Positions 3,239 to 32,701 of a stretch of 64,000 bases of DNA are shown in pieces (position 1 is the stretch's first letter; each line of letters begins with the position of its first letter). Source of the DNA: Synechococcus sp. PCC 7336 (GTDB taxonomy: Bacteria; Cyanobacteriota; Cyanobacteriia; Thermostichales; PCC-7336); contig NZ_CM001776.1 in NCBI RefSeq assembly GCF_000332275.1, positions 1,349,268 through 1,413,267 on the forward strand, read 5' to 3'. The notes below the pieces were generated by a model. That model saw only the letters and a list, made by a program, of their open reading frames with translations. It ran no database searches and was not told the DNA's origin. The translations under genes were made by a program, and so were the position numbers.

Positions 3239-4288
3239 TTATTTTTTAATTTCAGTAAAAGATTGATAGGCCTGCTGGGGGTGGAAGATATGGCACTGGC
3301 CCACCACCTGCTTCATCAACTCCCAATTAAATTTGCACTCGATTGTGGATTCTCCCCAGTTCTCCTTCAAGCTGGCGTGGGCGGCGCGCAGATTGTAGGA
3401 GGGAATGGCCGTCGAAATGTGATGGGGGATGTGGACATTAATGTCGTGGCAAAGCAGTTCCACCCACTTGGGATAGTCGCAGTGAACTGTCCCCGCCAAC
3501 TGTGCCTCGGCTGCATTCCATTCTTCAGCTAGCTTGAACTGCACGCCAGGATAAGTGTGATGCACGAGCGTGAATGTGCTCATCCAGAAGTGATAGCCCA
3601 GCCAGGGCATCAGCCAAAACTTGACCAATCCCCACCAACCGGTGAAGTACACCAGGGCAGATAGCATCATTGCCCCACCCACGAGCGCGAATGCCGCCGA
3701 AAAGGTAAACTTGCCCCGCTCGCGAGCGGTCACATTCTCAGTGGCGGGATTGAAGTGGTGCAATGCCCAGTGGAAAATGGATGCCAGCCACCAAAACCCG
3801 CCCCGCAGCGCTTTGTATAATCTCTGCATAGCCGGAGATTCGGCTTTGAAACCTTCCTCAGTCCAAGGGTGCCAAGCATTATCCACATTCAACTTGTTGG
3901 TGTGTAAGTGGTGGACATCGTGCTGAATGCGCCAGCCGTGAAAGGGATATAGCAGGGGCAGCATCGCCAAGTGACCGACGAGATCGTTCAACCAGGTTTG
4001 CTTGGCAAAGGAGCGATGGGCGCAGTCGTGAGCGATCACAAAAAATCCTGTTAGCGCAGTGCCGCTGAAAAACCAGGCAAAGGGCAGCAGATACCAAGGC
4101 GCAAAGGCGATCGCCCCATAGCCGAGAGCAGCAGCCACAATACTAATCGCTACCGAGCGCCACGCTTTGAGCGGATGCTTGACAAAGACTTCCTTGGGGA
4201 GCGTTTTGATGATGTCTGTAAGCTTCGTCTCGGGTGTGAGGGTATGCGACGGTGGTTCGGCGGCAGGGGGATAGATTGTGGCAGTCAT
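3239..4288 (-). CDS. desA: Acyl-lipid delta-12 fatty acid desaturase
   Basis: 349-aa membrane di-iron desaturase that introduces the delta-12 double bond into oleoyl chains on membrane glycerolipids, using ferredoxin as electron donor in cyanobacteria. The three histidine boxes are visible: HDCAH at residues 87-91, HDVHH at 123-127 and HIPHH at 286-290. Hydrophobic segments lie at about 46-80 and in the middle. The sequence closely follows cyanobacterial DesA throughout, for example [18 protein letters not shown] and [15 protein letters not shown]. The start is placed at the ATG at 4288 (MTATIYPP), because the 14 residues upstream in the open frame are unlike the family. Cold induction is known for the family; no regulatory site was identified here. 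Confidence 0.93.
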
Positions 4289-4657
4289 GGACGATCTGGA
4301 TTCTCCATAAAAAACGGCTGACACGACCACTCCCTAGACCGCTCGCCACACTTCACTAGGCCGAGCGATCGCCGACAGTGCAGTCTCGAACATGGGGGAT
4401 CGTGCAAGAGCTGTTAAGGTCTCTTAAATCTCAAGTATTTTATCGCTGCGACCGAACCTGAGATCCATTGAAAAGCCTTTACATTTCTATATTAAGTTAG
4501 TTTGTTTCGCGATCGATACCGCGAGGCTCGGCTGGGTCGAGGTGGAGGCGATCGAATTGCCGCAGCCATCTTGGCTGAGACATGCTAGAGGGGATTGGAG
4601 GCTAGAGCCGATGAGGTCAGTCTCCAAGAGTCTGTGTTGTGGATTGGGAGTGAACTG
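4289..4657. other. Divergent intergenic region desA / GTPase
   Basis: About 370 bp between two divergently transcribed genes, so it should hold both promoters. AT-rich stretches around 4430-4505 are the likely promoter zone. One weak plus-strand candidate is TTGAAA at 4469-4474 with TATTAA 16 bp downstream. No repeat element, hairpin terminator or small gene is convincing. Confidence 0.4.
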
Positions 4658-5977
4658 ATGGGCGATCGCCCTGAAATATCCCCGCCGCCAACTGGCGGGC
4701 CAGATCCCGATCGCCCTCAACCGAATGGCGACGGCGATCGAGATAATTTTGCTATCGGCTGGCCACAAGCGGGGTGGGGCAGTTTATTCAGCCAGTGGTT
4801 GGGGGTGAGCGATGCTCGCATGGCTGAGATTATCGAGCGCGTCCGGGCGGAACTGCCCACCACTTCAGCTCTGCTGATTGGCAAGCCCCAAGCGGGCAAA
4901 AGTTCGATCGTGCGCGGTTTGACAGGGGTGTCCGCCGAGATTGTCGGTCGCGGGTTTCGGCCCTACACGCAGCACACCGAGCGCTATGCCTATCCCTCTG
5001 GCGACCTACCCCTATTGCTCTTTACCGACACTGTGGGCTTGGGGGATGCCGAGCGAGACGATCGAGTGCTCGTAGGCGAACTACTGCAGGAGCTAGGCCG
5101 GGATAGTCCCGGTGCCAAGATCGTCATTCTGACAGTCAAACTGAACGACTTTGCCACCGACACCCTCCGTGCCATCGCCCGACAACTGCGGCAGGAATAT
5201 CCAGACATTCCCTGCCTGCTTGCGGTTACCTGCCTGCACGAGGTCTATCCCTCCCAGACTGATAACCATCCCCCCTATCCGCCCGATGACCCAGATGTAA
5301 GCCGAGCCTACGAGGCCGTACGGACATCGTTTGCGGGGCTTTACGATCGCGCTCTACCGATTGACTTTACGCTCGAAGAAGACGGCTACGAGCCTACGTT
5401 CTACGGACTTGAGGCTCTACGCGACAGCTTGGCAGAAATGCTGCCCGAAGCCGAAGCCCGAGCCATTGCCCAGCTATTGGATTCAACTCAGGACGCCAGT
5501 CGCAAGCTGGGCAGCCTCTACCGCGAGACGGCACGACGATATCTGCTGGCATTTTCGATTATGGCGGCGGCGGTCTCTGCCGTTCCCCTCCCCTTTGCCA
5601 CGATGCCCGCCCTCACCGCACTCCAAATCTCGATGGTGGGGTTATTGGGCAAGCTATACGGTCAAACCCTGACGCCCGCGCAGGTGGGGGGCCTGGTCAG
5701 TACGATCGCCGGGGGCTTTGTGGCCCGCACGGTAGGGCGAGAATTGCTCAAATTTATTCCCGGTTTTGGCAGTGCGATCGCCGCTTGGTGGGCTGCCGCC
5801 TATACTTGGGCGTTAGGGGAAGGGGCCTGCGTCTATTTCGGCGATCTGATGGGGGGCAAAACCCCCGACCCCGCTCGCATTCAACGGATCGCGAACGAAG
5901 CCTTTACCGCAGCCAAACAACGGTTTAAATCCCCACAGCCCGGACGCCCCCCCCGCTCGCCAGTGGATGGCGATTAG
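4658..5977 (+). CDS. Membrane-associated GTPase with C-terminal DUF697 domain
   Basis: 439-aa protein with an Era-like P-loop GTPase domain followed by a membrane-associating DUF697-type helical domain. Visible motifs are P-loop GKPQAGKSS, the Switch II/G3 region DTVGLGD, and a G4-region strand ending LLAVTCLHE rather than a clean NKxD. The C-terminal third (FSIMAAAVSAVPLPFATMPA, later GSAIAAWWAAAYTWALGEG) contains two hydrophobic hairpins typical of DUF697. The frame is open from TTG 4595, but ATG 4658 has GGGAG at 4647-4651, which favours it. The N-terminal 30 residues are Pro/Asp rich and probably disordered. Specific function is unknown; relatives are linked to membrane stress or chloroplast-type envelope roles. 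Confidence 0.8.
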   Translation: MGDRPEISPPPTGGPDPDRPQPNGDGDRDNFAIGWPQAGWGSLFSQWLGVSDARMAEIIERVRAELPTTSALLIGKPQAGKSSIVRGLTGVSAEIVGRGFRPYTQHTERYAYPSGDLPLLLFTDTVGLGDAERDDRVLVGELLQELGRDSPGAKIVILTVKLNDFATDTLRAIARQLRQEYPDIPCLLAVTCLHEVYPSQTDNHPPYPPDDPDVSRAYEAVRTSFAGLYDRALPIDFTLEEDGYEPTFYGLEALRDSLAEMLPEAEARAIAQLLDSTQDASRKLGSLYRETARRYLLAFSIMAAAVSAVPLPFATMPALTALQISMVGLLGKLYGQTLTPAQVGGLVSTIAGGFVARTVGRELLKFIPGFGSAIAAWWAAAYTWALGEGACVYFGDLMGGKTPDPARIQRIANEAFTAAKQRFKSPQPGRPPRSPVDGD

Positions 5978-23389: not shown

Positions 23390-23848
23390 ATGAGCATTAC
23401 CCGAAAAGCCATTATTCCGAAGGGAATGGAAATTTTATACGAAAAATATCGCTACTGCCCTGGCATTCGGGTTGGGAATATGTTGTATATCTCAGGGCAG
23501 GTGGGCCGCGATGAAAATTTACAAGTCGTCGAGGAAACGGAAGCTCAATTTGTGCAGGCTTTCGAGAACGTGAAACAGGTACTCTTAGCAGCAGACGCCT
23601 CTTTTAACGATGTGGTAGAGATGATTACCTACCACGTCACAGGGATAGGCTCCGGTCAGTCACAGGTTCAACTGTCTTCTAAGTTAGAGCAACAGCCAGG
23701 GACCATTCCCCACCTGCCGCTGTTTATGCAGGTCAAAGACCGTTACTTCACCCATCAGTTTCCCACTTGGACGGGCGTAGGTGTGACGGGCTTATCTACA
23801 CCAGGGCTTATCGTAGAGATTAAGTGTACGGCAATCCTCGAAAGGTAG
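23390..23848 (+). CDS. RidA/YjgF-family protein lacking the catalytic Arg
   Basis: 152 aa, one RidA (Rid/YER057c/UK114) domain, normally a homotrimer that hydrolyses reactive enamines and imines. Family blocks are visible: NMLYISGQVGRDENLQ, QAFENVKQVLLAADASFNDV and the end strand IVEIKCTAIL. The usual Arg of the PxR[ST] motif is replaced by Trp127 (FPTWTGVGV), so it belongs to Rid branches without proven imine deaminase activity. It is about 25 residues longer than E. coli RidA, with an insertion around residues 85-115. GAGG lies 10 bp before ATG 23390. It is the only plus-strand gene within the metabolic cluster. Confidence 0.85.
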   Translation: MSITRKAIIPKGMEILYEKYRYCPGIRVGNMLYISGQVGRDENLQVVEETEAQFVQAFENVKQVLLAADASFNDVVEMITYHVTGIGSGQSQVQLSSKLEQQPGTIPHLPLFMQVKDRYFTHQFPTWTGVGVTGLSTPGLIVEIKCTAILER

Positions 23849-25676: not shown

Positions 25677-26498
25677 CTATTGCGAATTATTCAGAAACTC
25701 GATCGCCACCTTCGAGATTTCTTCGGGCATCTGGTTCATCATACAAATTGTCCCCTTTTCAAATTCAACCACTCTGCTGTGAGGAATAACCCGAGAGACA
25801 AAATGGCGATTTTCCATTTTCGCTAAGCCCAGTCGTTCAAATTCCTCCACGTCATCTAGTCCCCACAGAATGAGTGTGGGACAGGCGATCGTGCGAAATC
25901 TCGCTTCCGCCTCCAGGCAATAATCGGCTACAGCCCAAACTGCGTACAAAGGATAGCCAAAGCATTTAAAGTCATCTAAAACCCAGCGATGATTTAACTC
26001 GGCAGAACCTACGTATCTAGAGCGGGCTTGCCATCGTTTCATCAGGTGGGAGCCGTCTGCTTGAATTTGAAAGCCTCGCTCGAATAATTGCATTAGCCTT
26101 GCTTTACCCGCTTCGCCGAAGCCTGCGACGTTGCCCAAGATCAGCTTATTGAGGCGATCGGGGTAAGCGGCGGCCATCTCTCCAGCAACAAATGCACCGG
26201 TATGGTTGCCCATAATGCTTGCTTTCTGGATGCCTAGCTCGTCCAATAAGGCGATCGCCGTTTTGGCGTAGTCGGCGATCGTATACAGTCTGGGAGGCTT
26301 GTCAGAATCGCCAAAGCCCATGAGATCCATTGCAATCACCTGTCTGTTTTCAGCAAAAATGGGCATCAACTCGCGAAATTCATCGCTACTGCGGGGATTC
26401 ATGTGCATTAAAAGAAGTGGCTCGCCTTCTCCACCGATTCGGTAAAGAATCTGGCCGTCGTCAGTATCTAAGAATGCCCGCTTGATAGGCTGGTTCAT
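25677..26498 (-). CDS. Alpha/beta-hydrolase-fold protein with atypical nucleophile
   Basis: 273 aa, soluble. The fold is recognisable: LLLMHMNPRSSDEF (oxyanion region), VIAMDLMGFGDSDKPP, then the strand-elbow ASIMGNHTGAFVAGEMA, and TLILWGLDDVEEF near the acid position. The nucleophile elbow is G97-N-H-T-G101, so His99 occupies the place of the usual Ser, Asp or Cys. No His is found where the catalytic base normally lies (EFEKGTICMMNQMPEEI). Either it uses different residues or it is not a hydrolase. It is 35 bp from the next gene in the same direction, part of the minus-strand cluster. Confidence 0.8.
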   Translation of the reverse strand: MNQPIKRAFLDTDDGQILYRIGGEGEPLLLMHMNPRSSDEFRELMPIFAENRQVIAMDLMGFGDSDKPPRLYTIADYAKTAIALLDELGIQKASIMGNHTGAFVAGEMAAAYPDRLNKLILGNVAGFGEAGKARLMQLFERGFQIQADGSHLMKRWQARSRYVGSAELNHRWVLDDFKCFGYPLYAVWAVADYCLEAEARFRTIACPTLILWGLDDVEEFERLGLAKMENRHFVSRVIPHSRVVEFEKGTICMMNQMPEEISKVAIEFLNNSQ

Positions 26499-26533: not shown

Positions 26534-26983
26534 TTATCGTATCCGCTCTTCTTCAATCAAAGTCCGTTGATAAATTTCCCCATCCCTGAACCAGTGCCAA
26601 GTACGAGCGCGACGAGCGTTGCCGGAATTAATATGAATCATTTCATAGACGTAAACGTCCGCTATATCTTTGTAACTAAACCACAAGATAACGATCGAAT
26701 CATCTGCTTCCCACGCACGTCCGTGAATGCGTTCTGTGTCAAACCAGAGGCTTTTATCGCGGTAAGTGCCTGGAAACTGATACTCTTGCACCTTTCCATC
26801 AGGCCACTCATACCGATTGGTTTGAAAGTAGGGAGAAGAAGCATCCTCCTCTGGAAACTTGCAGGTTATCTGCGACTTGTGTTTGTCGATGATATTTCCG
26901 TCATTATCGATAATAGTATAAGTGCCAGCCCAGGTCCCTTCATGTCGAACGAGGACGGGCATTTCAGCTCGAATTGCAGACAT
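26534..26983 (-). CDS. Lipocalin-like small protein (DUF3598-type)
   Basis: 149 aa, predicted mostly beta strand with a start typical of calycin-like barrels (HEGTWAGTYTIIDNDG) and repeated aromatic strands (FQTNRYEWPDGKVQEYQFP; SIVILWFSYKD; ARTWHWFRDGEIYQRT). No catalytic motif is evident; it may bind a small hydrophobic compound or be an isomerase-like accessory. Resemblance to DUF3598 is by pattern only. AAGGAG lies 8 bp before ATG 26983, a strong ribosome site. It sits between the alpha/beta-hydrolase and aldehyde dehydrogenase genes, all on the minus strand. Confidence 0.6.
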   Translation of the reverse strand: MSAIRAEMPVLVRHEGTWAGTYTIIDNDGNIIDKHKSQITCKFPEEDASSPYFQTNRYEWPDGKVQEYQFPGTYRDKSLWFDTERIHGRAWEADDSIVILWFSYKDIADVYVYEMIHINSGNARRARTWHWFRDGEIYQRTLIEEERIR

Positions 26984-27071: not shown

Positions 27072-28517
27072 CTAGTCGGACATATCGTCCGTGGCTTTTG
27101 GGAGATCGAACCACCAGGGATCGGGTGCGGAGTTTGTTTTGACCAAAAAGGCTTTCTTCCGCATAAATCGCGCGATCGCTGCCGGTCCCATGCGCGAACC
27201 CCCCAAGCCGGACCCTTTGAAGGCATTTTTCTCTCCTTCGTAGATGAATGCCGTTAACGCAGCATCGTTGATACTGATGCCACCCGCATCGATACGGCGT
27301 GCTACCTCTAGAGCTTCAGCGTCCGATCCGGCAAAAACAGCCGCGCTGAGGCCGTAGTTCGTATCGTTGGCTAGCGCCACGCCTTCTTCAACTGTCGAGA
27401 ATGACATGACCGGCATAATCGGACCAAACGTTTCCTCTGCCATCACCTTCATCGATCGCTCGACCTGAGTCAAAACTGTCGGGCGACACCAGAGCCCCCC
27501 ACCTAATGCTTCAATTGCCCCTCCACAATGCACCACTGCCCCCTTTGCCGCAGCCTCATCGAGGTGTGCGGCAATCGTCGCTGCCTGCTTTTCAGCAATG
27601 ATGGGACCGATTTGGCCACTGTCGACGGATGGATAGGTTAGCTGCAGGCGCTTTGCCTTTTGGACCAGCATTGCGACAAAGGGCTCGAAGATGGCATCGG
27701 CAGCGTAAATGCGTTCGAGGGAGAGACAAGATTGACCGGTATTGACCGTCGAGCCCCACAAGATGGCTGAGGTGGCCAACTCTAGATTGGCGGAGGCCAG
27801 CACGATCGCCGGATCTTTGCCTCCCAGTTCTAAAAAAGCTGGAATAAAGCGCTTGGTTGCGGCCTCTGCTACTGTCCGGCCCGTTGCCACACTGCCCGTA
27901 AAGCAGACTAGATCGACGCAGTCGATTGCAGCAGCCCCCGTATCGCCTGCCCCCTCCACATAAGCCAAGACATCTCGAAGCTGGGGGACAGCGGCGATCG
28001 CCTCTGACAGCGGTTTGATAAATCGGGGGGCAATTTCACTCGGCTTCACGACGACGGCACAACCAGCCAGCAGGGCCGGGATGGTGTCGATCGCAGACAG
28101 CAAAAGTGGAAAGTTCCAGGGGCTGATAACACCGACTAAAGCATAGGGAACTGACTGCTGTTGCAATCGGATGAAGGGGATGGCGCTGGACTTCGGTTCT
28201 GGTTCCGCCAGCAATTGGGGGGCTAGCCGACACCAGCGATCGATGCTGGAGATAACCGAATCCAGTTCGAGCGCGGATTCCGTTCGTCTGCCCGTGTCGG
28301 CAGTCAATGCCTGTACTAGTTTCTGCTTGCGGGCCAACAAAGACTGCTTCCATCTTTGCAGTGCCTCGATGCGTTGTTCCAGCCCTCCCGCCTGCCAGTC
28401 GAGTTGAGCAGTTCGCAGGCGATCGCATCGCTCGGCCAGCCGATCCCGTTCTGGAGGCTCGATCCAGTAGTCAACCATTCCCGTGCGGGGATTGCGAACG
28501 CCAATGGGGCCAGCCAT
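27072..28517 (-). CDS. Aldehyde dehydrogenase
   Basis: 481-aa NAD(P)-dependent aldehyde dehydrogenase with an intact active site: Asn in ISPWNFPLL, cofactor loop FTGSVATG, general base E230 in FLELGGKDP, and nucleophile C264 in NTGQSCLSLERI. The C-terminal tail (residues 460-481, NSAPDPWWFDLPKATDDMSD) is longer than usual and acidic. It is not closely similar to the aldehyde dehydrogenase at 9862. ATG 28517 lies 3 bp after the stop of the nitrilase-like gene, so the two are translationally linked. In context it probably oxidises an aldehyde intermediate of the cluster's pathway. Confidence 0.92.
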   Translation of the reverse strand: MAGPIGVRNPRTGMVDYWIEPPERDRLAERCDRLRTAQLDWQAGGLEQRIEALQRWKQSLLARKQKLVQALTADTGRRTESALELDSVISSIDRWCRLAPQLLAEPEPKSSAIPFIRLQQQSVPYALVGVISPWNFPLLLSAIDTIPALLAGCAVVVKPSEIAPRFIKPLSEAIAAVPQLRDVLAYVEGAGDTGAAAIDCVDLVCFTGSVATGRTVAEAATKRFIPAFLELGGKDPAIVLASANLELATSAILWGSTVNTGQSCLSLERIYAADAIFEPFVAMLVQKAKRLQLTYPSVDSGQIGPIIAEKQAATIAAHLDEAAAKGAVVHCGGAIEALGGGLWCRPTVLTQVERSMKVMAEETFGPIMPVMSFSTVEEGVALANDTNYGLSAAVFAGSDAEALEVARRIDAGGISINDAALTAFIYEGEKNAFKGSGLGGSRMGPAAIARFMRKKAFLVKTNSAPDPWWFDLPKATDDMSD

Positions 28518-28520
28518 CTC

Positions 28521-29549
28521 TCAAATCATCCCGAGCTCGTCTAAACGCTCGATGGTTTCTTGCTGAGTTTGCCTAAAGTGCGATCGTTCCACTTTACCCT
28601 CCAGCATGGTGTTGGGGGGATATATGCGCGCTTGGCGATAGCAATCGGCATAGAGCTCCGGTCGCTGTCGGGCCAGCAGATTATTTAAACCCAGTTGGCG
28701 GCGAAATCGTCTCGAGGCTGCCAGATCGATGTCTGCAAAGGCGGCCATACTTTCTCCGGCACCAGTCTCGGCCAAAACCAGTCCTCGATAGTCTACGATT
28801 TGGGAGCCGCCGTCCGTTGAGGAACTAGGGATATTGGTGTTAGCGATACCTGCGGTATTGGCGGAGATGACATAGGCGGAATTTTCGATCGCGCGGGCGA
28901 TTTTGGCGATGTCTTTCGGCGATCGCCCCTTGCCGTAAATTTCTGACGTGGGATGCAGAAAAATTTCCGCCCCCCGCAGGGCCAAGCAGCGCGCCACTTC
29001 TGGGAACAAAATCTCATCGGAGGCTACGGCAGCAAGATTGCCGATGGCGGTTTTAGCCACCGGAAAAGCACCGTCGAGACCGTAACAGTCGAGATATCGC
29101 TCCCAGACATCGTGTGGGGTGGGAGCAAACATGGAATTGAGCCGTCGATAGCGCAGGACGAGCGAGCCTGTCGGGGCGATCGTAAAGCAGCTCTGGAAGT
29201 ACAGATCTGGAAAATTGGGATCGAGTTCGTAGGCATTTCCAGCTAAAAAGATATTGTGCTTTTGGGCAATCTGTCCCAGCGAGTCGTAGAGCGGATCGTC
29301 CATGTCTAAGCAGGCTTTTTCTGCCCAAGCGACTACTGACTCTCCCATCGGGAAACCCGTCAGTACGTATTCGGGCAAGACTACCAGGCGACAGTCGGGG
29401 CCAATAAAGGCAAGGCTGGCGGCAATTTGAGACTCTAGGCGATCGAGAGTCTGTTGCATCAGCGATCGCGCTTCAGTGCGATTTCGAGCCCGATTGACGG
29501 CCGAGCAGGTCACTTGGAGCGCTAATGCTTTGAATGAATCAATCGCCAT
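28521..29549 (-). CDS. Nitrilase-superfamily protein without catalytic Cys
   Basis: 342 aa of the carbon-nitrogen hydrolase fold (alpha-beta-beta-alpha). The general base E60 is kept in VVLPEYVLTGFP. By eye the Lys of the triad is Arg136 (YRRLN), and the nucleophile Cys is replaced by Ala176 in AAVASDEILFPEVAR, where active members have ICYD..FPE. So the Glu-Lys-Cys triad is not intact. The rest is well conserved (LALRGAEIFLHPTSE; ARAIENSAYVISAN), arguing for a maintained but changed function. It is the first gene of a tight pair with the aldehyde dehydrogenase. AGAGG precedes ATG 29549. Confidence 0.85.
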   Translation of the reverse strand: MAIDSFKALALQVTCSAVNRARNRTEARSLMQQTLDRLESQIAASLAFIGPDCRLVVLPEYVLTGFPMGESVVAWAEKACLDMDDPLYDSLGQIAQKHNIFLAGNAYELDPNFPDLYFQSCFTIAPTGSLVLRYRRLNSMFAPTPHDVWERYLDCYGLDGAFPVAKTAIGNLAAVASDEILFPEVARCLALRGAEIFLHPTSEIYGKGRSPKDIAKIARAIENSAYVISANTAGIANTNIPSSSTDGGSQIVDYRGLVLAETGAGESMAAFADIDLAASRRFRRQLGLNNLLARQRPELYADCYRQARIYPPNTMLEGKVERSHFRQTQQETIERLDELGMI

Positions 29550-30302: not shown

Positions 30303-31811
30303 TTATGCCATTGCTTTCGGGGACACCCCATAGGGGCGTTTCAAATACTGCCCGCAGGGCGAACCGATGACTTGTCCTTTGTCGTAAATCAGATTGCCGC
30401 GCAAAAATGTACTCTTGACTCGCCCAGTCAATTCCATCCCCTCAAACGGCGAATAGCCCTGCTGGGACTCAGACTCTTCGGCACGAACCACAAAGGATTC
30501 GTTCGGATCGAAAAGCACGAAGTCGGCATCGTATCCAATGGCAATATCCCCTTTTTCCAACAATCCAAATCGCTGGGCAGGATTCCAACACAACATCTCG
30601 GCCATGCGATTGTAGGACAAGCCGCGCTTGCTACCTTCGCTAAACACGCCAGAGAGTAAGTATTCCGTACCGCCAAAACCAGATTTTGCCAGCCAGATAT
30701 TGTCGGGGTCTTGCAGACTTGCTTTCTTCTCAGCAGAGCAACAGGCGTGGTCGCTGACGATCCAATCAATTTGGCCGTTCGAGACTGCCTGCCACAAATA
30801 TTCCACATCAGCTCGGGATCGAATGGGGGGGTTGACCTTAGCCCATTTGCCTGTGGGGGCGTCCACATCTAAGAGCAAATGACCGACTGTCACTTCTCGC
30901 TTGAAATTGATCTGAGGAAAGGCCACATCCATCATCAGAGCAGCATCTAATGCTTTACGGGAACTGAGGTGTAGCAGATTGATATTGGCACAATTGGTCT
31001 CGTGAGCTAAGTAGGAGGCGATAAATATGGCTAGCCCTTCTGAATGGGGCGGACGGGCAGCACTGTAGGCTCTGAGACCGCTGAGATTGCGATCGCCCTC
31101 GACAATTTTGGTATAAGCACTCAAGATTTCAGCGACTTCGCAGTGAAGGCTGAGGCTGATGAAATCATTGGCTTCTGGGTAACGTTCTCTCAGTTTAGTC
31201 AGGCCGCGCATAATAAATTCAAAATGAGCAAAATCGTAGCGTTCCTCTGGCTCAATCATGAGGAAAAAGTTTTGCTTGTCTGAGAGACCGTGCAGGCCGT
31301 AGCCGCCGTAGAACATAAAAATTTTGAACGACGAGATGCCATGCTCTTCAAAAAGCCACTGCATTTCGTCAATATGCTGGCCACTAATGGGTGCAATATG
31401 GTAGCCATAATCGACAAAAAACTTCCCGTCTGACAGTGCCAGTACCTCGGGAAAGAAATCCTGATAAGGTCCGCCTTTATTGAGGTAATACTGACCGGTA
31501 CGGATATAATTCAAGCTTGTCGTCACCCCCCCCATCGCCGCTGCTCTACTTTCGGTCGCGGCATCTTTGTCGAGAGGTTGATAGATACCGACGTGCATGT
31601 GGGAGTCAATCACCCCAGGAAAACCCAGCAGGTTTTGAGCGTCGAACACATCTTTTGCACGATCGCCACAAATATCCCGCTCGATGCAGGCAAATTTGCC
31701 ATCCTTTATGCCCAAATCTAGCTGTTCGACAGTCGGGTGATTGGGGCGAACCAGGCGCACATTTTTGATAACTTTGTCCAGAACTGTGGCTTCAGACACG
31801 ATGGACCTCAT
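30303..31811 (-). CDS. Dihydropyrimidinase/allantoinase-like amidohydrolase
   Basis: 502-aa cyclic amidohydrolase of the dihydroorotase/dihydropyrimidinase group, binuclear metal enzymes that open cyclic amides such as hydantoins, dihydropyrimidines or allantoin. Metal ligands are present: H71 and H73 (DSHMHVG), carboxylated Lys163 (SSFKIFMFYGG), H223 (SLHCEV), H281 (LLHLSS) and D354 (VSDHACC). The C-terminal beta domain ends RGNLIYDKGQVIG. The enzyme should therefore be active; the substrate pocket cannot be assigned. It follows the oxygenase-like gene by 89 bp in the same direction and is the most canonical hydrolase of the cluster. Confidence 0.9.
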   Translation of the reverse strand: MRSIVSEATVLDKVIKNVRLVRPNHPTVEQLDLGIKDGKFACIERDICGDRAKDVFDAQNLLGFPGVIDSHMHVGIYQPLDKDAATESRAAAMGGVTTSLNYIRTGQYYLNKGGPYQDFFPEVLALSDGKFFVDYGYHIAPISGQHIDEMQWLFEEHGISSFKIFMFYGGYGLHGLSDKQNFFLMIEPEERYDFAHFEFIMRGLTKLRERYPEANDFISLSLHCEVAEILSAYTKIVEGDRNLSGLRAYSAARPPHSEGLAIFIASYLAHETNCANINLLHLSSRKALDAALMMDVAFPQINFKREVTVGHLLLDVDAPTGKWAKVNPPIRSRADVEYLWQAVSNGQIDWIVSDHACCSAEKKASLQDPDNIWLAKSGFGGTEYLLSGVFSEGSKRGLSYNRMAEMLCWNPAQRFGLLEKGDIAIGYDADFVLFDPNESFVVRAEESESQQGYSPFEGMELTGRVKSTFLRGNLIYDKGQVIGSPCGQYLKRPYGVSPKAMA

Positions 31812-31900: not shown

Positions 31901-32701
31901 TTAGGCTTGTAGGGCTTTGTCCCATTCTAACTGATGGGCTAAACCATACTTGATGAAATCTGCTTTTTCAGCTTTGTCGCTTTTGCCAAATACTCCTAAG
32001 CTATAGGGATTATCCTGCATGCGTTTTTTGACTAGATCTGTTTCAAATGCGATCGCTTTCTCTCTCGGCATATCGGGTTTAAAGAAGTCTACGATTAAGA
32101 CAGTTCTATCGCGATCGGTATAATTATGCGGACAGTGTGGATAGCTATGATCTAAAACCATGAACTCGCCTTCATGCCAAAAGAGCTCGTCGTGACAGAT
32201 CTTCATCGCGACATCTCCCTTTGGCACGATCAATCCTAGATAGCCGCGATTCATATGGGGGTGATTGTTCACATGCAGTTTGATATCTAGCCCCGGATAG
32301 TAAGTGCCAAAGTAGACATTCCTGAGGATGTCATCGTCAGTGGAATTTATCGTTGCGATCGCCTCCGACAATTTTGAAAAATATTTCTCCCTTAACTCCA
32401 GTGCTCGTTCTGAGGCATGATGTGAATCGTAATTAGGATAATGTATGTGATGTACCCTAATGTATTCTTCAATAAAGATGCCTTGGAACAATATTCCGAA
32501 AGCACTATATTTGCCTTTTCCTTTAGTCTTCAGTGTTTTACTTTTCGGCCCCAGTACATTATAGGCGAATGCTAACTCTTCACTAGAGGCATTTTGGTTG
32601 AATTGTGTAAACTCATCCCTAATAGTCTGCCACTTTGCTTGGAAGCCCTTGAGAAAGGGAAATTGCTCTGGGTCTAAACGGTATTCGGTGTAACTTCCCA
32701 T
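31901..32701 (-). CDS. Aspartyl/asparaginyl beta-hydroxylase-like protein
   Basis: 266 aa; the central 130-210 region matches the AspH (PF05118) 2-oxoglutarate/Fe(II) oxygenase fold: HVNNHPHMNRGYLGLIVP, FWHEGEFMVLDHSYPHCPHN, then DRDRTVLIVDFF. The distal Fe-ligand His (H189) and the 2-oxoglutarate-binding Arg (R199) are plausible. The first Fe ligand, normally His in RxHLGL, aligns with Tyr154 (RGYLGL), although three other His (143, 147, 149) are just upstream. If active it would hydroxylate a small molecule or protein. GGAG precedes ATG 32701. It is the first gene of the minus-strand cluster and so may be its promoter-proximal member. Confidence 0.82.
   Translation of the reverse strand: MGSYTEYRLDPEQFPFLKGFQAKWQTIRDEFTQFNQNASSEELAFAYNVLGPKSKTLKTKGKGKYSAFGILFQGIFIEEYIRVHHIHYPNYDSHHASERALELREKYFSKLSEAIATINSTDDDILRNVYFGTYYPGLDIKLHVNNHPHMNRGYLGLIVPKGDVAMKICHDELFWHEGEFMVLDHSYPHCPHNYTDRDRTVLIVDFFKPDMPREKAIAFETDLVKKRMQDNPYSLGVFGKSDKAEKADFIKYGLAHQLEWDKALQA

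Follow-up and report, generated by a model that had tools for sequence, protein, structure and literature searches.

A nitrilase-fold protein with an invariant Glu-Arg-Ser site, encoded beside an aldehyde dehydrogenase in cyanobacteria

The window is a 64,000-nucleotide stretch of the Synechococcus sp. PCC 7336 genome (5.07 Mb, single contig). Near its middle lies an intact gene for a nitrilase-like protein (hereafter NIT-like), with an aldehyde dehydrogenase (ALDH) gene and a set of recurrent neighbours around it. Neighbour counts refer to 80 loci, those of the best 80 of 164 relatives of NIT-like.

28521–29549, minus strand: NIT-like, nitrilase fold with a Glu-Arg-Ser site, 342 residues (PF00795; AF2 model)
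27072–28517, minus strand: ALDH, 3 bp downstream of the NIT-like stop (PF00171, 3e-101)
26534–26983, minus strand: small DUF3598-like protein (PF12204, 1e-5)
25677–26498, minus strand: alpha/beta-hydrolase-fold protein with a GNHTG elbow, wider cluster (PF00561; homologues in 18/80 loci)
30303–31811, minus strand: allantoinase/hydantoinase-like amidohydrolase, upstream, wider cluster (TIGR03178; 1k1d; 18–20/80 loci)
31901–32701, minus strand: Asp/Asn beta-hydroxylase-like protein, recurrent neighbour (PF05118; 15/80 loci)
23390–23848, plus strand: Rid/YjgH-like protein, recurrent neighbour (PF01042; 1pf5 YjgH; 9/80 loci)

The NIT-like frame is open without stops, and its product is a clear member of the nitrilase superfamily, matching the CN_hydrolase profile PF00795 at 105.8 bits (E = 3e-30; cut-off 23.2 bits). 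It lies far below all NCBIfam equivalog cut-offs, with 59.5 of the required 410 bits for N-carbamoylputrescine amidase, 58.5 of 406 for formamidase and 45.3 of 427 for aliphatic amidase. An initial AlphaFold model built from 68 close homologues scored low over the half that contains the active site (pLDDT 62); once seven remote nitrilases encoded on viral contigs were included, what is still a shallow, hand-made alignment gave a mean pLDDT of 82.3 and a pTM of 0.81, with residues 161–180 at about 93. Searches of this model with Foldseek and VIA-align returned 213 chains at Z ≥ 8, the top rows all being nitrilase-superfamily enzymes with the alpha-beta-beta-alpha fold; aliphatic amidases and formamidases rank highest, at Z 30–32 (2uxy: Z 32.0, rmsd 3.5 over 284 residues; further top matches 2plq, 5g3o and 2e2k). 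The original prediction of a well-preserved fold is borne out by this model.

To our knowledge, all well-studied nitrilase relatives have the catalytic Lys and a reactive Cys. We compared these columns in the NIT-like family by scanning 84,980 species genomes, which yielded 164 confirmed relatives; the best 80 of the 164, all with cyanobacterial names, together with the window protein make up the 81-sequence set used below. An orthologue from an actinobacterium, Nonomuraea (Actinomycetota, locus L122), is 49% identical and has the same E60, R136 and S177. The site columns are encoded as follows.

29370–29372, minus strand: Glu60 codon, retained catalytic Glu column (E in 81/81 and in Nonomuraea)
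29142–29144, minus strand: Arg136 codon, catalytic Lys column (R in 81/81; K in canonical relatives)
29100–29102, minus strand: Glu150 codon, second Glu column (Asp in 73/81)
29019–29021, minus strand: Ser177 codon TCC, nucleophilic Cys column (S in 81/81; paired with Cys in the alignments)

The assignment of the nucleophile column follows from spacing and from alignment. Canonical members place the Cys seven residues ahead of the Glu in FPE (C-x-D-x-x-F-P-E), and counting back from FPE in NIT-like leads to Ser177 (S177-D178-E179-I180-L181-F182-P183-E184), with E179 in the place of the canonical Asp. Three alignment methods pair Ser177 with the Cys with no gap nearby: phmmer against mouse Nit2, MAFFT, and HHalign, run profile against profile with 68 NIT-like family members and canonical nitrilases. 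Ala176, which the original prediction had taken for the Cys position, is thereby ruled out as one residue off. The same prediction had correctly read E60 as retained and the Lys column as Arg136, and its suggestion of checking positions 176 and 177 in homologues gave A176 and S177 in every one of the 81. Its description of a protein lacking the catalytic Cys and Lys therefore holds literally, but the argument from an Ala at the nucleophile position falls, because an invariant Ser stands there: Lys and Cys are replaced by invariant, chemically competent residues, Arg and Ser. The likely meaning thus shifts from deletion of the nucleophile to its exchange, and the site is Glu60-Arg136-Ser177 with an acidic residue at 150.

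Other cysteines were considered as substitutes. Neither C188, named earlier as an example of a Cys that a superposition might place in the active site and replaced by Ser or Thr in 5 of the 81 sequences, nor C53 or C15 is common to the whole family. A comparison of the cyanobacterial sequences with the Nonomuraea orthologue found no shared Cys position, so no other Cys, C188 included, stands in for the missing nucleophile.

E60, R135, R136, A176, S177 and E179 are invariant in the window protein and the best 80 of 164 relatives, and the Ser177 codon is always TCN. Identity to the Nonomuraea protein is 80% within seven residues of the four site positions and 44% elsewhere; when the mask was shifted circularly within the core, 3 of 304 placements reached this contrast (the mask had been placed around 176 instead of 177, a shift of no practical consequence). 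The polar residues that are near-invariant in both phyla include N105, Y107, E108, T201, S202, E203 and R219. Median dN/dS, by simple Nei–Gojobori estimates on related pairs that are useful as a comparison only, is 0.083 for NIT-like; the ALDH has 0.090 and the DUF3598 protein 0.117. Because the altered site is unchanged across cyanobacteria and one actinobacterium, the sequences indicate that NIT-like is a maintained working protein and not a decayed gene, and its pocket looks like one in use, not a dead scaffold. Strong purifying selection, conserved synteny and the fold model all agree with the earlier suggestion of a retained pseudo-enzyme or one with new chemistry. Searches of viral contigs for the family found nothing.

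The ALDH lies beside NIT-like in 70 of the 80 loci and a DUF3598 protein is near it in 53, several of the absences being contig ends. The tight operon with an intact ALDH that had been noted from the sequence is confirmed by the 3 bp gap and by the motifs ELGGK and GQSCL, intact in 70 of 70 copies. In Nonomuraea, an ALDH (53% identical), a DUF3598 protein (42%) and the NIT-like gene occur together, so the three genes are a conserved unit present in two phyla. In one cyanobacterial family, 89 of the 145 genomes sampled have NIT-like and 139 have the ALDH, so that NIT-like is an add-on to a more widespread ALDH. An orthologue of the ALDH has been solved (chain 4h7n, 705 bits); the open-access literature yielded neither a function or substrate for this ALDH or 4h7n nor a description of the three-gene cluster.

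Further neighbours recur around the unit. The upstream amidohydrolase scores 236.8 bits against the allantoinase model TIGR03178, below its cut-off, and also matches the D-hydantoinase 1k1d; others are BKACE, a DUF4437 protein, a SnoaL-like protein and a quinone-oxidoreductase-like protein. In 31 of the 80 loci (for example L071, 7176–7946), the gene directly upstream of NIT-like on the same strand encodes a member of the red chlorophyll catabolite reductase family (PF06405). Of 19 clustered sequences of the alpha/beta-hydrolase-fold protein, 16 share the GNHTG elbow, in which His occupies the nucleophile position normally taken by Ser, Asp or Cys; after NIT-like, this is a second hydrolase of the cluster whose nucleophile is altered. 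The Rid-like protein, with E. coli YjgH (1pf5) as its nearest solved structure, has PTWTGVG in all ten copies, where imine deaminases are expected to have their catalytic Arg motif.

Relatives at about 30% identity occur in haloarchaea, Tsukamurella, Flammeovirga, Streptomyces, Paracoccus, Sinorhizobium, Arthrobacter and Novosphingobium, the non-cyanobacterial sampling being a plasmid collection (plasmids and chromids). Together with NIT-like they form one branch separate from canonical nitrilases (support 100/99; 98/96 with the site columns removed), and a profile of this wider branch finds a formamidase as its first match in the PDB (E = 5.5e-34). The nucleophile column is Ser in cyanobacteria and Nonomuraea, which form one clade (100/99), Ala in haloarchaea, Tsukamurella plasmid 13 and Flammeovirga, Gly in Novosphingobium, where Gln also replaces E60, and Cys in the remaining members; the catalytic Lys is kept in all groups except the one with Ser. 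The tree requires at least three changes of the nucleophile residue, and uniting all non-Cys groups in one clade is marginally rejected (p-AU 0.046). Repeated change of the nucleophile within the wider branch is favoured, though not proven, and the Ala and Gly groups show that the branch tolerates its loss. The groups with Ala or Gly, all full-length, include two haloarchaeal copies that are 75% identical to each other.

L123 5992–7095, L141 3992–5083, L124 5926–7017 and L125 5929–7044: haloarchaeal, Tsukamurella and Flammeovirga proteins that have Ala at the nucleophile column, Glu and Lys kept
L128 4860–5837 and L139 3845–4843: Novosphingobium proteins in which Gln replaces the catalytic Glu and Gly the Cys

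The Novosphingobium genes neighbour a luciferase-like monooxygenase at L128 and an alpha/beta hydrolase at L139, and Cys-bearing relatives from Streptomyces and Tsukamurella (L126 5977–7116, L138 about 4001–4816) adjoin genes for an amidohydrolase-family protein and an M20-family hydrolase, a hint that the wider branch has to do with opening the rings of cyclic amides.

Our leading but tentative reading, to which we give somewhat less than an even chance, is that NIT-like is a repurposed member of the AmiE/AmiF side of the superfamily, in which Ser177 replaces Cys in acyl chemistry on a substrate linked to the ALDH. In a retained amidase-side protein whose pocket is still used, Lys would have become Arg and the nucleophilic Cys would have become Ser; Ser177 would take over as the nucleophile, Glu60 would serve as the base, and Arg136 and the acidic residue 150 would hold the tetrahedral intermediate. 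The acyl-enzyme that forms and is then released would be an ester instead of a thioester, and the substrate would be tied to the neighbouring ALDH. This proposal draws on the invariance of S177, R136 and E60 in the 81 sequences and Nonomuraea with S177 at the Cys column, on a dN/dS slightly below that of the ALDH and the higher conservation around the site, on the structural match to AmiE and AmiF, and on the linkage of the three genes in two phyla. A chemical precedent comes from E. coli Lnt C387S, which makes an oxygen-ester acyl intermediate without transferring it (PMC6828757); BCG_2279c, a natural Cys-to-Ser homologue of Lnt, failed to replace Lnt in BCG (PMC3850990). The first chemical half is thus possible, with full turnover not guaranteed, and both results also count against serine chemistry here, as do the sister groups with Ala or Gly and a structural model that rests on a shallow, hand-made alignment.

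Ligand binding without turnover is nearly as likely as serine acyl chemistry, and we regard it as a serious contender. NIT-like would then be a pseudo-enzyme that binds a pathway metabolite and acts as a sensor, a carrier or a regulator of the ALDH or the DUF3598 protein, and the conserved active-site loops also fit this reading. Engineered traps of the fold among our structural matches, with Ser or Ala for Cys, are stable proteins that bind ligands (6ypa, C146A with glutaramide; 5h8l, C158S with putrescine; 8hpc, C171A), Ser for Cys usually halts turnover (PMC6828757, PMC3850990), and the persistence of full-length Ala and Gly relatives, including the similar haloarchaeal pair, shows the same tolerance. 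Pure binding accounts less well for the specific invariance of Ser and Arg in 81 of 81 sequences and in a second phylum, and the sister groups that lack a nucleophile have kept their Lys. A tuned site is favoured over a dead one by the matching Lys-to-Arg change, by the two-phylum invariance and by the host genome, which encodes five CN_hydrolases in total, the next copy being 27% identical to NIT-like, and in which no close active paralogue was found.

An unlikely alternative is chemistry in the pocket without a Ser nucleophile or a covalent intermediate, for example of a hydratase or lyase using E60, R136, E179, T201, S202 and E203. The near-invariant polar residues shared by both phyla would suit it, but it asks for more new features than simple retention of the nucleophile position would, and we know of no precedent for it in the nitrilase superfamily. 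Still less probable is that the pocket is irrelevant and NIT-like serves as a structural or regulatory subunit, either a scaffold or the inactive partner of an active paralogue. Oligomerisation is common among nitrilase-fold proteins, which speaks for such a role, but conservation in the protein is highest around the pocket, and the missing close paralogue speaks against such a partner. A sequencing error or a decaying gene, the former having been raised at the outset together with homologues that would restore the Cys, can be dismissed: nothing was found in its favour, all 81 copies share E60, R136, A176, S177 and E179, the frame lacks stops and dN/dS is low.

Returning to acyl chemistry at Ser177, the fuller proposition is a natural Glu-Arg-Ser family with a serine nucleophile, arising in a branch of repeated Cys, Ser, Ala and Gly change and working with the ALDH in a cyanobacterial pathway of which our searches found no description; we consider it possible, with a little less confidence than the mechanism itself. 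The nitrilase superfamily is described as reliant on a nucleophilic Cys together with Glu and Lys; a large natural family in which Ser and Arg occupy those positions without exception offers a direct test of serine chemistry in this fold, with the Ala and Gly sister groups as natural controls. Automatic annotation as 'nitrilase-related hydrolase' masks several groups that lack the known catalytic apparatus, and the NIT-like/ALDH/DUF3598 gene set, conserved in many cyanobacteria, is apparently undescribed.

Our searches of the open-access literature found no Cys-less cyanobacterial nitrilase, no family near the amidase branch combining Cys-to-Ser with Lys-to-Arg, and one reported natural Cys-to-Ser exchange in the superfamily, in the Lnt branch. 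BCG_2279c and E. coli Lnt C387S resemble NIT-like in having Ser at the Cys position, but they belong to a membrane acyltransferase branch in which the Cys change alone is reported, whereas NIT-like has also changed its Lys; BCG_2279c, moreover, coexists with an active Lnt, whereas NIT-like has no close active paralogue in its genome. AmiE (2uxy, 2plq) and AmiF (2dyu, 5g3o), the best structural matches, share with NIT-like the Glu60 column, an acidic second Glu column and the region of the C-terminal extension, and differ from it in having the catalytic Lys and Cys where NIT-like has Arg136 and Ser177, at about 20% identity. The unnamed nitrilase-related proteins of haloarchaea and the seven bacterial genera listed with them above belong to the same branch as NIT-like, most with a PHDVW-like motif, but keep the Lys and carry Ala, Gly or Cys at the column where NIT-like has Ser. 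Canonical nitrilases and N-carbamoyl amidases, from the host genome and from relatives, have the same fold at 24–30% identity, with Glu-Lys-Cys intact.
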